From: Sulfuricella sp. | GTDB lineage: Bacteria; Pseudomonadota; Gammaproteobacteria; Burkholderiales; Sulfuricellaceae | Reading direction: 5' to 3' | DNA length: 7,869 nt | NCBI GenBank assembly: GCA_019911785.1 | Contig: JAIOJM010000031.1 | Span: forward strand, 1-7,869 | In this document: positions 4,039 through 7,869 of the stretch, piece by piece | Layout: the number at the start of each line of letters is the position of its first letter | How positions within the stretch are numbered: position 1 is the stretch's first letter | Notes under the pieces: generated by a model | Told to the model about the DNA's origin: nothing | What the model saw: only the letters and a program-made list of their open reading frames with translations | Databases searched by the model: none | Position numbers and translations under genes: made by a program

Positions 4039-6000
4039 ATGAAATCTCTCTTTATGGCCGTTGTTTTTTCCGCGGGGGCCGCACTTTCCGCATCCAGCAA
4101 TGCCGCCGTAGCCAGCCCAGAGGCCGATTTTCTCGCGGCGCGCGAGGCTTTCAGGTCGGGCAATATTTCCCGTTTCGATGCCATGGCCGCGCGCTTGCAA
4201 GGCCATGTGCTGGAGCCCTTCGTCGCCTACATGCAACTCATGTTGCGCCTCAAGGACGCGAGCCCGGACGAGATCAAGGGTTTTATCCAGCGTAACGGGG
4301 ACAGTTTCCTGGCCGACCGGCTGCTCGCCGAATGGCTGCGGATGCTGGCAAAAAACCAGCGCTGGGAACTGTACATGAGCGAATACCCCGCGCTGATCAC
4401 CAGGGACTCGGATCTGGTCTGCTATGCCTTGCAGGCGCGGCTCGCACTGGGAGACGGCGCCGCGCTGGCGGAGGCGAAGCCCTACTGGTTCAACGCCGAA
4501 GAGCAGCCTGAGAGTTGCCTGCCCCTGTCCGATGCTTTGGCGACCAACGGCCTGCTCACCGTGGAGGACGTGTGGGCGCGTTTGAGGCTGACCCTGGAGG
4601 CGGGTAACGTCAGCGTGGCGAAGCATGTTGCGCGTTACTTCCCCGGCGGGCAGGAGATTCCCCTGCGCGAGCTGGAGCGTGCGGCGGAAAACCCGCTTGC
4701 CTTTCTCGACAAGCTGCCGGTGAGCCTTTCGACCCGTGCCGGCCGGGAGCTGACCCTGTTCGCCCTGTCCCGCGCGGCTCGCAGCCAGCCGCAGCAGGCC
4801 TTGCCTTACTGGAATGCGCTGTATTCCAGTTTCGGCGCGGAGGAACAGGCCTATGGCTGGGGACAGCTGGCTTTCCATGCCGCGCGCAAGCACGATCCGG
4901 AAGCGCTGGCTTGGTTCGGCAAGGCGGACGGGACCCGCCTTTCCGACTTGCAGCTCGCCTGGAAAGTGCGCGCCGCCTTGCGCGAGCAGAACTGGCCGGA
5001 GGTGCAGGCCGCCATCGCCGCCATGTCGGAGGCGGAGCAGAACCAGGGCTCCTGGCGCTACTGGAAGGCGCGCGCGCTCAAGGCGCAGGGCAAGCCGGTG
5101 CAGGGCAACGCGATCCTGGCGCCGCTGTCGAAGGAATTCAATTATTACGGCCAGCTTGCCGCCGGGGAGCTGGGTGTGGTGGCCGGCATTCCGGCCGAAA
5201 GTTTCAAGGCGAGTGACGACGAGATCAAGGCCATGGAGAAGCTGCCGGCGATCCGGCGCGCGCTGGCCCTGTACGAGATGAACCTGCGCTATGAGGCCAA
5301 CCGCGAGTGGATGTGGGCGGTGCGCGGGCTCGACGACCGGCGTCTGCTGGCGGCGGCGGAGGTGGCGCAGCGCCACGGCTGGTATGACCGGGCCATCAAC
5401 ACGGCGGACAAGACCCAGCAGCTGCATAATTTCAGTCTGCGCTTTCCCGCTCCCCACCGTGACGTGATGCAGGAGCAGGCACGTTTGGTCGGCCTGGATG
5501 AGGCCTGGGTATACGGCCTGATCCGCCAGGAAAGCCGCTTTGTCCAGCAGGCGCGTTCCGGCGTCGGCGCGTCGGGATTGATGCAGCTGATGCCGGGAAC
5601 GGCGCGTTGGGTGGCGAAGCGCCTCGGGATGAAGAACTTCCGCCAGTCGCTGGTCAACCAGCTGGATACCAACGTGACGCTCGGCACCTATTATCTCAAG
5701 TATGTGCTCGACAAACTCGACGGCCAGCCGCTGCTGGCGACCGCCGCCTACAACGCCGGTCCCAGCCGCGCCATCAAGTGGCGCAGCGAGGCGCCGATGG
5801 AAGGCGCGATCTATGCCGAAACCATTCCGTTTGCCGAAACCCGCGGCTATGCGCAGAAGGTGATGAGCAATGCCGTCTACTACGGCAACCAGTTCGGCCG
5901 GCAGTTGCAGTCATTGAAACAGCGCTTGGGCACGATTACGCGAGGAAGCGGAAAGATCGAATGCGCCGGCAATGACGAGCGCGCGCCGGATTGCGAATAA
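4039..6000 (+). CDS. slt: Soluble lytic murein transglycosylase (Slt70 family)
   Basis: This periplasmic enzyme cleaves the MurNAc-GlcNAc bond of peptidoglycan and leaves 1,6-anhydro-MurNAc ends. The product has 653 residues, close to E. coli Slt70 (about 645). A signal peptide occupies about 1-22 (MKSLFMAVVF..., cleavage near SNA-A). A long alpha-helical superhelix (about 27-450) leads into the C-terminal SLT domain (about 485-620). Catalytic Glu498 lies in IRQESRF, followed by GLMQLMP at 513-519 and AYNAGP at 570-575, the standard goose-lysozyme-like motifs. Cys128 and Cys160 in the superhelical part could form a disulfide as in Slt70. The open frame reaches back to 3874, but that extension overlaps the ALDH gene and would bury the signal peptide, so ATG 4039 is chosen. 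This ATG has no Shine-Dalgarno. The tail carries two more cysteines (642, 652). The next gene begins 11 nt after the stop, which suggests one operon. Confidence 0.93.
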   Translation: MKSLFMAVVFSAGAALSASSNAAVASPEADFLAAREAFRSGNISRFDAMAARLQGHVLEPFVAYMQLMLRLKDASPDEIKGFIQRNGDSFLADRLLAEWLRMLAKNQRWELYMSEYPALITRDSDLVCYALQARLALGDGAALAEAKPYWFNAEEQPESCLPLSDALATNGLLTVEDVWARLRLTLEAGNVSVAKHVARYFPGGQEIPLRELERAAENPLAFLDKLPVSLSTRAGRELTLFALSRAARSQPQQALPYWNALYSSFGAEEQAYGWGQLAFHAARKHDPEALAWFGKADGTRLSDLQLAWKVRAALREQNWPEVQAAIAAMSEAEQNQGSWRYWKARALKAQGKPVQGNAILAPLSKEFNYYGQLAAGELGVVAGIPAESFKASDDEIKAMEKLPAIRRALALYEMNLRYEANREWMWAVRGLDDRRLLAAAEVAQRHGWYDRAINTADKTQQLHNFSLRFPAPHRDVMQEQARLVGLDEAWVYGLIRQESRFVQQARSGVGASGLMQLMPGTARWVAKRLGMKNFRQSLVNQLDTNVTLGTYYLKYVLDKLDGQPLLATAAYNAGPSRAIKWRSEAPMEGAIYAETIPFAETRGYAQKVMSNAVYYGNQFGRQLQSLKQRLGTITRGSGKIECAGNDERAPDCE

Positions 6001-6004
6001 GGAG
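5999..6004 (+). promoter_or_regulatory. Ribosome binding site fixing the start of the NDUFA9-like gene
   Basis: AAGGAG overlaps the slt stop codon (TAA 5998-6000) and precedes ATG 6012 by 7 nt. This favours the start at 6012 over the in-frame ATG at 5991 inside slt, which has no such site. It also indicates tight coupling of the two genes. Confidence 0.8.
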
Positions 6005-6011
6005 AAAAATC

Positions 6012-6956
6012 ATGGAAATCAAGAAAGTTTGTGTGCTGGGTGGAAGCGGTTTTGTCGGCCGGCATGTGGTCAGCCGGCTGTGCGGGCGGGGGTACGAAGT
6101 GCTTGTGCCCTACCGCAACATCAACCGCGCCAAGCACCTTGCCGTGCTGCCGACGGTGTCGCTGGTGGAAGCGGATGTCCATGATCCGGATGTGCTCAAG
6201 GGGCTGTTCCGGGGCGTGGATGCGGTGATCAACCTGGTCGGCATTCTCCATGAAGGAAAGCGCGGCGCTTTCCAGCGTGCGCACGTGGAGCTGCCGCGCA
6301 AGGTGGTGGAAGCCTGCCGGGCGGCGGGGGTGAAGCGGTTGCTGCACATGAGCGCCCTCGGCGGCGACCCGGACGGCCTGAGCCGCTACCAGCGCAGCAA
6401 GGGGGAGGGTGAGGCACTGGTGCTGGCGGCCCACGGGGAGGGTCTGGCGGTGACGGTATTCCGCCCGTCGGTGATTTTCGGCCCGGAAGACAGCTTTCTC
6501 AACCTGTTCGCCCGCCTGCTCCAATGGGCGCCGATTTTCCCGCTCGGCAGCCCGAATGCCAAATTCCAGCCGGTGTATGTCGGCGACGTGGCCCATGCGT
6601 ATGTCGCCAGCCTGAACAACCCGGCTACCTTCGGCCAGCGCTACGAACTGTGCGGTCCGACGGTTTACACCCTGCAGGAGCTGGTCGAATACGTCGCCAG
6701 GGTCAAGGGTCTCAAGCGCACGGTCATGCCGCTGTCCGATGAGATGTCCTCGTTGCAGGCCATGCTGCTGGGCCTGATGCCGGTGAAGATGCTGACCCAC
6801 GACAACTACCTGACGCTGAAAACCGACGCGGTGTGCGGCTGCCCATTCCCCGAGGTGTTCGGCATTCAGCCTGCGGCTATCGAGGCTGAAGCTCCGCTGT
6901 ACCTGGCGGGCATTCAGCCGCCGCGCTTCAAGCGGTTTATCGACGAGAAACGCTAG
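6012..6956 (+). CDS. NDUFA9-like atypical short-chain dehydrogenase/reductase (complex I NDUFA9 family)
   Basis: This 314-residue protein has an N-terminal Rossmann fold and resembles the bacterial relatives of the mitochondrial complex I accessory subunit NDUFA9 (atypical SDRs). The nucleotide-binding GGSGFVG lies at 10-16 right after the first beta strand (KKVCVLGG). Other SDR landmarks are INLVGIL in the middle strand, LLHMSALGG, a YxxxK pair (Tyr126, Lys130 in RYQRSK), and FRPSVIFGPED followed by QPVYVGDVAHAYV. The bacterial proteins are generally annotated as NAD(P)-binding. Their reaction is not established, and the family is not part of the 14-subunit bacterial complex I; no nuo genes are near. 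Membership of the slt transcription unit is likely, with 11 nt between them. The TAG stop uses the G that is also the first base of the palindromic element at 6956-7118. Confidence 0.88.
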   Translation: MEIKKVCVLGGSGFVGRHVVSRLCGRGYEVLVPYRNINRAKHLAVLPTVSLVEADVHDPDVLKGLFRGVDAVINLVGILHEGKRGAFQRAHVELPRKVVEACRAAGVKRLLHMSALGGDPDGLSRYQRSKGEGEALVLAAHGEGLAVTVFRPSVIFGPEDSFLNLFARLLQWAPIFPLGSPNAKFQPVYVGDVAHAYVASLNNPATFGQRYELCGPTVYTLQELVEYVARVKGLKRTVMPLSDEMSSLQAMLLGLMPVKMLTHDNYLTLKTDAVCGCPFPEVFGIQPAAIEAEAPLYLAGIQPPRFKRFIDEKR

Positions 6957-6974
6957 GAGCCTGCCGGACTTATG
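6956..6974 (+). repeat. Left terminal inverted repeat of the palindromic element
   Basis: GGAGCCTGCCGGACTTATG. It pairs with 7100-7118 at 17 of 19 positions; the mismatches are C6964 against A7110 and A6968 against C7106. Its first G completes the TAG stop codon of the NDUFA9-like gene. Confidence 0.75.
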
Positions 6975-6998
6975 ATGAATCGGCTGCAAATCCGCCTG

Positions 6999-7024
6999 GG
7001 CGGTCCATATTCCGCCGCTTTTTT
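6999..7024 (+). terminator. Terminator-like hairpin inside the palindromic element
   Basis: GGCGG (6999-7003) and CCGCC (7012-7016) form a 5-bp GC stem with an 8-nt loop. Two bases later there is a run of six T (7019-7024). This has the shape of a weak intrinsic terminator at the end of the slt / NDUFA9-like unit. A second CCGCC at 6992-6996 could compete for GGCGG, though only as a tight 4-bp hairpin. In the full-length fold of the element part of these bases pair elsewhere, so termination is uncertain. Confidence 0.4.
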
Positions 7025-7047
7025 GGTCAATAGAATGACTATTGACC
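7025..7047. repeat. Perfect 9-bp inverted repeat at the centre of the element
   Basis: GGTCAATAG (7025-7033) and CTATTGACC (7039-7047) are exact reverse complements around the 5-nt loop AATGA. The centre (7036) is that of the whole element (7037), so this is the apex of the long hairpin. Taken alone it would also pass for a dimeric operator. Confidence 0.7.
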
Positions 7048-7099
7048 TGCAAAACCGGCAAAATCTGTCCGCGCCCAGCCGAATTTTCGCTTCGATCCC

Positions 7100-7118
7100 C
7101 ATAAGCCCGACAGGCTCC
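7100..7118 (-). repeat. Right terminal inverted repeat of the palindromic element
   Basis: On the minus strand this reads GGAGCCTGTCGGGCTTATG, the partner of the left arm with two differences. It ends 8 bp before the cca start codon. Confidence 0.75.
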
Positions 7119-7126
7119 AAACCTTC

Positions 7127-7869
7127 ATGAGAATCTACGCCGTCGGTGGCGCGGTGCGCGACGAGTTGCTCGGGCTGCCGGTGGCCGACCGCGACTACGT
7201 GGTGGTCGGCGCGACGCCGGAGGAAATGGTGGCCCAGGGGTTCAGGCCGGTGGGCAAGGATTTTCCGGTATTCCTTCATCCCGAGACTCACGAGGAGTAC
7301 GCCCTGGCCCGCACCGAGCGCAAGACCGCGCGCGGCTACAAGGGCTTCCAGGTTTCTGCCGCGCCCGAGGTGACGCTGGAGGAGGATCTTGCGCGGCGCG
7401 ACCTCACCATCAACGCCATCGCCAAGGATGAAGCCGGTCTGTTCATCGATCCCTATGGCGGCACGGCCGATCTCAAGGCCGGCATCCTGCGCCACGTCAG
7501 CCCGGCCTTCGTCGAGGACCCGGTGCGGGTGTTGCGGGTGGCGCGTTTCGCCGCGCGGCTCGGCTTTGCCGTCGCGCCGGAAACCCTCGCCCTGATGCGG
7601 GAGATGGCCGCCAACGGCGAAGTCGATGCGCTGGTGCCGGAGCGAGTGTGGCAGGAGCTGTCGCGCGGCCTGATGGAAAAGACCCCCTCGCGCATGTTCC
7701 TAGCGCTGCGCGAGTGCGGCGCGCTGGCCCGCATCCTGCCCGAGCTGGACGCCCTGTTCGGCGTGCCGCAGACCGAGCAATACCACCCCGAGATAGATAC
7801 CGGGGTGCACGTGATGATGGTGGTGGACTACGCCGCCGCGCAGAACTACGACCTGCCGGTGCGCTTCGC
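7127..7869 (+). CDS. cca: CCA tRNA nucleotidyltransferase (multifunctional type), 3' end beyond the window
   Basis: The frame runs from ATG 7127 to the right edge (247 codons plus two bases). The enzyme adds or repairs the 3'-terminal CCA of tRNA using CTP and ATP. The class II nucleotidyltransferase head is complete: GGAVRD at 7-12, the metal-binding pair Asp21 and Asp23 (same numbering as E. coli), RRDLTINA at 90-97, and the [12 protein letters not shown] segment from Glu130. The text from His220 (HPEIDTGVH) matches the start of the C-terminal HD domain that gives gammaproteobacterial and betaproteobacterial enzymes their phosphatase and phosphodiesterase activities. The window stops just before the expected His-Asp doublet. 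The start aligns with the E. coli N-terminus (MKIYLVGGAVRD), yet there is no Shine-Dalgarno in the 8 bp between it and the palindromic element. Expression may therefore depend on sequences within that element. Confidence 0.93.

Follow-up and report, generated by a model that had tools for sequence, protein, structure and literature searches.

A palindromic mini-transposon with IS1182-type ends in Sulfuricella and related bacteria, and a fold conserved on one of its strands

Bacterial mini-transposons of the MITE type are often viewed as leftovers of insertion sequences, with hairpins derived from the ends. ERIC is an imperfect palindrome, and the ends and target of both ERIC and Correia elements differ from those of the element described here, which is likened to them by description only. 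Passages of PMC10969869 describe both as mostly intergenic and present in many copies, as is the present element, and report that transcripts containing Correia are affected by RNase III and those containing ERIC by RNase E. The closest described system is MITEPye1 of Paracoccus yeei, which its authors judge to be moved by IS1182 transposases (PMC11578231). It resembles the present element in its length of 159 bp, its non-coding and intergenic character, its 4-bp direct repeats, a predicted RNA stem-loop and 18-bp ends that are similar to those of the IS1182 family, a likeness of description only; it differs in its low copy number (1-3 in chromosomes) and in its restriction to one species, and the relevant passages of that paper do not describe strand-specific covariation (PMC11578231). 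A 4-bp repeat is also given in a passage of PMC3281130 that lists ISPse1 of the IS1182 family. QMITE1 and QMITE2 of Coxiella burnetii are likewise long palindromic MITEs, and, according to passages of PMC5896051, copies of QMITE1 are transcribed, one of them having first been seen as a small RNA; as described there, they differ in their direct repeats, and the authors found no QMITE1 orthologues in other genomes. Other MITEs are described in passages of PMC4853749. In the literature outside most subscription journals we found no paper presenting the end sequences given below as an element, MITEPye1 being the nearest, and the end string itself occurs in one paper, PMC11077965. Beyond MITEPye1, a family of such breadth with a conserved, strand-specific structure was not found in print in that same literature.

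The element lies in a window of 7,869 nucleotides from a Sulfuricella sp. genome (the whole stretch of DNA that was analysed). A preliminary description of this stretch had proposed that positions 6956-7118 form a 163-bp imperfect palindrome, probably a MITE. Reading the sequence and folding it confirmed the palindrome: the 19-bp terminal inverted repeats, GGAGCCTGCCGGACTTATG at 6956-6974 (plus strand) and GGAGCCTGTCGGGCTTATG at 7100-7118 (minus strand), match at 17 of 19 positions as had been stated, and the perfect 9-bp inverted repeat reported at the centre, GGTCAATAG-AATGA-CTATTGACC, forms a central hairpin at 7025-7047. The extent first given needs a slight correction, consisting of a mobile core of 161 bp (6957-7117) plus one base on each side. 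A transposase gene cannot fit in this core, and the two minus-strand open reading frames that run into the element (5880-7061 and 6953-7495) are mostly antisense to the adjoining genes. The palindrome is very probably one copy of a non-autonomous mini-transposon, or MITE, most likely moved by IS1182. The earlier MITE interpretation is supported by multi-copy spread, conserved ends, variable flanks and empty sites; it contained neither the CTAG and stop-codon target nor the strand-specific, covarying, class-wide structure described below, nor the large difference in fold energy between the two strands of the palindrome.

The insertion lies between a gene for an NDUFA9-like NAD(P)-binding protein upstream (6015-6956, plus strand; Pfam Epimerase and NAD_binding_10, the name being that of the preliminary description) and a cca-like tRNA nucleotidyltransferase gene downstream (7127-7867, plus strand; Pfam PolyA_pol and PolyA_pol_RNAbd), which leaves the window. 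The NDUFA9-like protein is 89% identical in Sulfuricella sp. T08 and 91% identical in a Sulfuricella MAG. Occurrence as a single copy kept together with its flanking genes, which had been named as grounds for preferring a local regulatory structure, is not what relatives show: the element is missing in all nine with a readable junction (L001-L007, L009 and L026; L008, which differs downstream, was left out of the count), and there the two genes lie at most a few bases apart. A single CTAG is found at the empty site in L001, L002 and L026, at the point occupied in the window by the left CTAG (6953-6956). The sequence is CGCTAGCTTC at the empty site of L001 and CGCTAG-element-CAAACCTTC in the window; the target was therefore a CTAG containing a TAG stop codon, the TAG at 6954-6956 being the stop codon of the NDUFA9-like gene. 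In the scenario we propose, the element would have landed on this stop-codon CTAG in an ancestor of the Sulfuricella-like bacterium and the target would have been duplicated on insertion, with the left copy retaining the stop codon and the right copy decaying. The putative right copy (7118-7121) now reads CAAA, where most other copies have CTAG. With the stop codon preserved by the left CTAG, the insertion probably did next to no harm. The interval 6800-7300 showed no sigma-70-type promoter and one terminator-like site, at 6999-7016, shuffles of that interval giving 0.6. Of the two strands of the element, transcripts of the NDUFA9-cca pair contain the less stable one, which nevertheless forms a strong hairpin, and an effect of the element on cca expression is possible. 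The remaining genes of the window, between 420 and 5997, are all ordinary; they encode a GGDEF protein with a HAMP stretch, a phosphonate-type periplasmic binding protein, an aldehyde dehydrogenase (minus strand) and a lytic transglycosylase.

The prediction of multiple intergenic copies that have their ends in common and differ in their flanks was borne out in related genomes. The element query matched 19 of 22 genomes of the family, including all eight related genomes first searched, and 104 distinct copies were assembled by script, of which 74 are full-length. An exact CTAG start was found at the left end of 61 of these 74 (13 lack it), and at the right end CTAG occurs within a 14-base stretch in 62. 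Genome G066 has at least 40 full-length matches, 40 of 130 candidates having been scored; the 29 copies read there fall into nine distinct sequences and all differ in their flanks, with CTAG bordering both ends, apparently as a result of a recent burst of copies (L262 and L277-L306). G013 likewise has many copies with differing flanks and CTAG ends, and in three genomes at the class level the 6-7 copies present in each are 90-100% alike. Copy numbers are lower bounds where few candidates were scored per genome (two in the order search, seven in the class search). One occupied site looks orthologous between G003 and G008 (L055 and L042), with the element 94% alike and the flanks 94% and 85%, and copies can therefore persist after divergence. 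A site shared by G015 and G013 also looks orthologous (element 91%, flanks 73% and 71%) and might reflect two separate insertions into one CTAG. In L129 and L130 tandem ends were observed, one element abutting another copy at its CTAG end.

For the 71 of 74 full copies with enough flank, gene directions were called by a codon-usage score trained on the window's genes and expressed relative to the plus and minus strands of the element: 18 copies lie in a ++ setting, 19 in a -- setting, 19 between converging and 6 between diverging genes, and in 9 at least one side was uncalled. Orientation is thus even, and gene ends are favoured over promoters (19 vs. 6, two-sided binomial about 0.015), a preference that the CTAG target, often at a TAG stop, may explain. 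Spread on plasmids or phages was not seen in searches of plasmids, phages and viral contigs: the window element gave only three short plasmid matches (E 0.5 or worse), two class-level elements gave no plasmid matches and one of the two no phage matches, and two exact patterns had no matches among viral contigs.

With regard to the mover, a DUF772 family search yielded locus L214 in genome G019, where an IS1182-type transposase frame that is open at its start is followed by the same end as that of the element. The frame has a DDE_Tnp_1 domain and scores 268.3 bits against NF033551, just below the cut-off of 270. Relatives of this transposase were found in 12 of 399 genomes of the order, and several of the order transposases have CTAG and ends like AGCCTGTCGGACTT on either side. 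Eight IS1182 elements (L223-L226, L235, L236, L337 and L338) carry CTAG and nearly the same ends of about 19 bp on both sides. Among these is ISAzo1 of Aromatoleum aromaticum (L235, NC_006824), whose transposase is 73% identical over the matched stretch. These insertion sequences differ from the present element in having a transposase gene, in their length of 1165-1594 bp (the eight seen) and in the lack of a clear internal-fold match: the fold of the element was not found by a covariance model in 320 kb that included eleven IS1182 loci, the best match there (E 0.11) falling at the terminus of an IS1182 element of L337. Since IS1182-family elements have nearly the same ends together with CTAG, the element is probably moved in trans by an IS1182-family transposase, which would act on these shared ends. 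In the order, element and transposase occur together in four of the 12 transposase genomes among 399 (Fisher p 0.011); G019, from which the query protein came, is among the four. At the class level there is no clear difference, an IS1182 transposase being present in 7 of 30 element-bearing and 2 of 19 element-free genomes. Such ends adjoin the class transposases of G713 and G499, a single one was seen in G683 and a weaker match in G465, and none was found beside the transposase in G561, G608 and G489 or in the two element-free genomes. The burst genome G066 also encodes a transposase, which shares 67% identity with the one in L214. In L214:1-113, near the contig start and before the transposase frame, there is a small inverted repeat, GGTCAGGTCTAGCTA ... 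TAGCTAGACCTGACC, which seems to truncate the start of the gene.

Folding, which had been suggested as a check, showed that 6950-7125 folds far better than shuffled sequence on both strands: the plus strand reaches -72.6 kcal/mol (z -7.1) and the minus strand -108.2 kcal/mol (z -12.3), values reached by none of 200 shuffles in either case. The minus strand of the window is the well-folding and fold-conserved one, hereafter the structured strand. An alignment of 36 diverse copies contains 60 pairs with 96.8% of cells paired; 31 of the 60 pairs have double changes, in 214 cells, none of 500 shuffles reaches any of five measures, and sliding the partners destroys the signal. Of 29 loci at the class level, 27 entered the consensus fold (without L326 and L329), and after six were lost to cut flanks the remaining 21 copies, with a mean identity of 73%, show double changes in 38 of 60 pairs. 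The class consensus energy is -91.7 for the structured strand vs. -69.1 for the other strand. Several segments are kept while the helices between them are exchanged, for example TCGA-AGCGAAA, GCGAGGACAGA, ATATGGACCG and TTGCAGCCGA in the order; the parts kept in the class set are TCGTAGCGAG, CGAG, TTTGAGG, AACGAAAA and CGCAGTAGA, GGACAGA not being strictly kept. A covariance model was run on 369 genomes sampled from across the class, seven candidates being scored in each; 78 of them have matches at E <=1e-4, and nearly all of the matches listed are 163-166 nt long, two being 174 and 192. Identity with a known Rfam RNA family was rejected: Rfam has no such family, and no covariance model reached its gathering score in the window or in 15 loci, the only hits being to microRNA models that fell far short of the cut-offs. 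As covariation and strand bias show, a single-hairpin fold of about 165 nt with conserved internal loops is kept on one strand, separately from the ends.

The difference between the strands is consistent across copies. The minus strand, in window terms, is more stable in all 64 full copies without inserts and in all 59 further copies of the family and order, that is in 123 of 123, many of which are near-identical; at the class level the structured strand folds better in 28 of 29 copies, the other being equal. Because double changes alone cannot separate RNA from DNA in a palindrome, we counted wobbles, using a pairing score that weights G-T and A-C equally and thus favours neither strand. In a tree of 65 rows, the minus strand has 78 changes from Watson-Crick to G-U pairs and the plus strand 20 (59:15 on terminal branches); these events share ancestry, and the distinct column changes, 38:15 (p 0.002), are the safer figure. 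Structured-strand wobbles are in excess in 86 of 99 distinct copies, fewer in 3 and equal in 10; the excess is found in 29 of 32 groups (31 genomes and the window). The 29 class copies have 98 such wobbles vs. 41 on the other strand, with an excess in 23. Rare changes within single genomes are distributed 14:6 in G013, 12:4 in G003, 1:0 in G019 and 0:2 in G066.

The bias is alike in the two co-directional gene settings (++ 23:8, -- 11:3), and transcription of host genes therefore does not explain it; transcription-coupled mutation as its source is accordingly unlikely. In paired columns C->T changes were seen in 25 of 33 and G->A in 9 of 33, and at unpaired G the change to A was seen in 9 of 12, which argues against a plain mutation bias. 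Changes of A->G (12 of 30 paired columns) vs. T->C (6 of 30) point in the same direction without being significant alone (p 0.16), and A->G is also common at free columns, a control of 31 columns. Of these free positions, 24 of 31 are purines on the structured strand. Taken with the folding, these counts make it likely that one strand is selected to fold.

The structured strand would then act as a folded molecule, more probably RNA than single-stranded DNA. RNA is our first choice, since it accommodates G-U as a stable pair and typically has purine-rich loops. We give somewhat less than even odds to a single transposon-borne family of structured RNA, about 165 nt long with conserved loops, that would be carried on IS1182-type MITEs by roughly a fifth of the class genomes sampled and in which the folded RNA of one strand would be selected irrespective of the landing site. 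To be selected at every insertion site, an RNA would have to be transcribed on its own or to benefit the element itself. If this reading is right, the MITE would be a mobile non-coding RNA gene, not a dead transposon fragment.

A hairpin of one DNA strand is bound by a recombinase or transposase in integron attC sites and REP hairpins, and the element may similarly be recognized as single-stranded DNA, with G-T tolerated better than A-C on that strand. The independence of the strand bias from host gene direction fits such recognition, as does the even orientation to genes, which would be odd for a part of host mRNAs, and a near-fixed length with conserved internal loops suits recognition of a folded whole. 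Its ends and CTAG, however, match those of IS1182 elements, whose transposase has a DDE domain, and 30 loci of Y1 (REP-type) transposases do not carry such ends above background; we regard this explanation as rather doubtful.

Somewhat less probable still is that the fold is a functionless relic, a palindrome from birth whose arms have been kept alike by hairpin-templated correction and shared ancestry. Template switching in palindromes can correct one arm from the other and yields double changes without selection, the copies share ancestry in a way that makes event counts non-independent, and the only two of the rare transitions seen in G066 are both of the other kind. A strand-neutral template switching should, however, give neither the 78:20 wobble ratio nor a suppression of G->A mainly at paired G, and between lineages it is the helices that change and the loops that stay, the reverse of what a decaying palindrome would be expected to show.

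A regulatory hairpin or terminator local to the NDUFA9-cca pair could account for the strong folding of both strands and for the terminator-like site at 6999-7016, but absence from the nine readable relatives and the many copies at unrelated sites make it very improbable, and the empty sites refute a local operon hairpin as the origin of the element. Least credible is a REP/RAYT element, an identity suggested by the palindromic, intergenic and multi-copy character and by nested hairpins of about 40 bp that look REP-like, and rejected since the element shares its ends and CTAG copies with IS1182 elements and 30 scanned Y1 loci from six of eight genomes gave six end matches, with six mismatches each, which does not exceed the background of the relaxed pattern.

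In this element the fold, the length and several of the loop sequences have been retained through a rewriting of the helices, with the constraint lying on one strand. It can thereby be asked, in a testable form, whether some MITEs survive because their RNA or a folded DNA strand serves the element or the host. A census of the element can draw on the existing covariance model, and CTAG targeting near stop codons is a possible reason why dozens of copies are tolerated.

Smaller hairpins were also observed. A second hairpin of about 40 bp (TTGCGAG...hairpin...CCTGCTTNNCCC) occurs twice within the element, the two sites having opposing orientations and adjoining TTTT, and was found inside copies L127-L133, L049, L146, L153 and L156, among others. 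Its stem sequence varies with pairing retained, and it is also present within an unrelated palindromic repeat (L178:468-504); it looks like an independent, REP-like mobile hairpin. A pattern for it gave 40 matches in six of eight genomes and no control matches, an earlier and stricter pattern having given 13 matches in two of five genomes and two control matches. Short forms of 54-58 bp that consist only of the two ends and the outer arms, and resemble solo hairpins, were seen at L160:494-551, L175:1312-1365 and L163:2935-2989.
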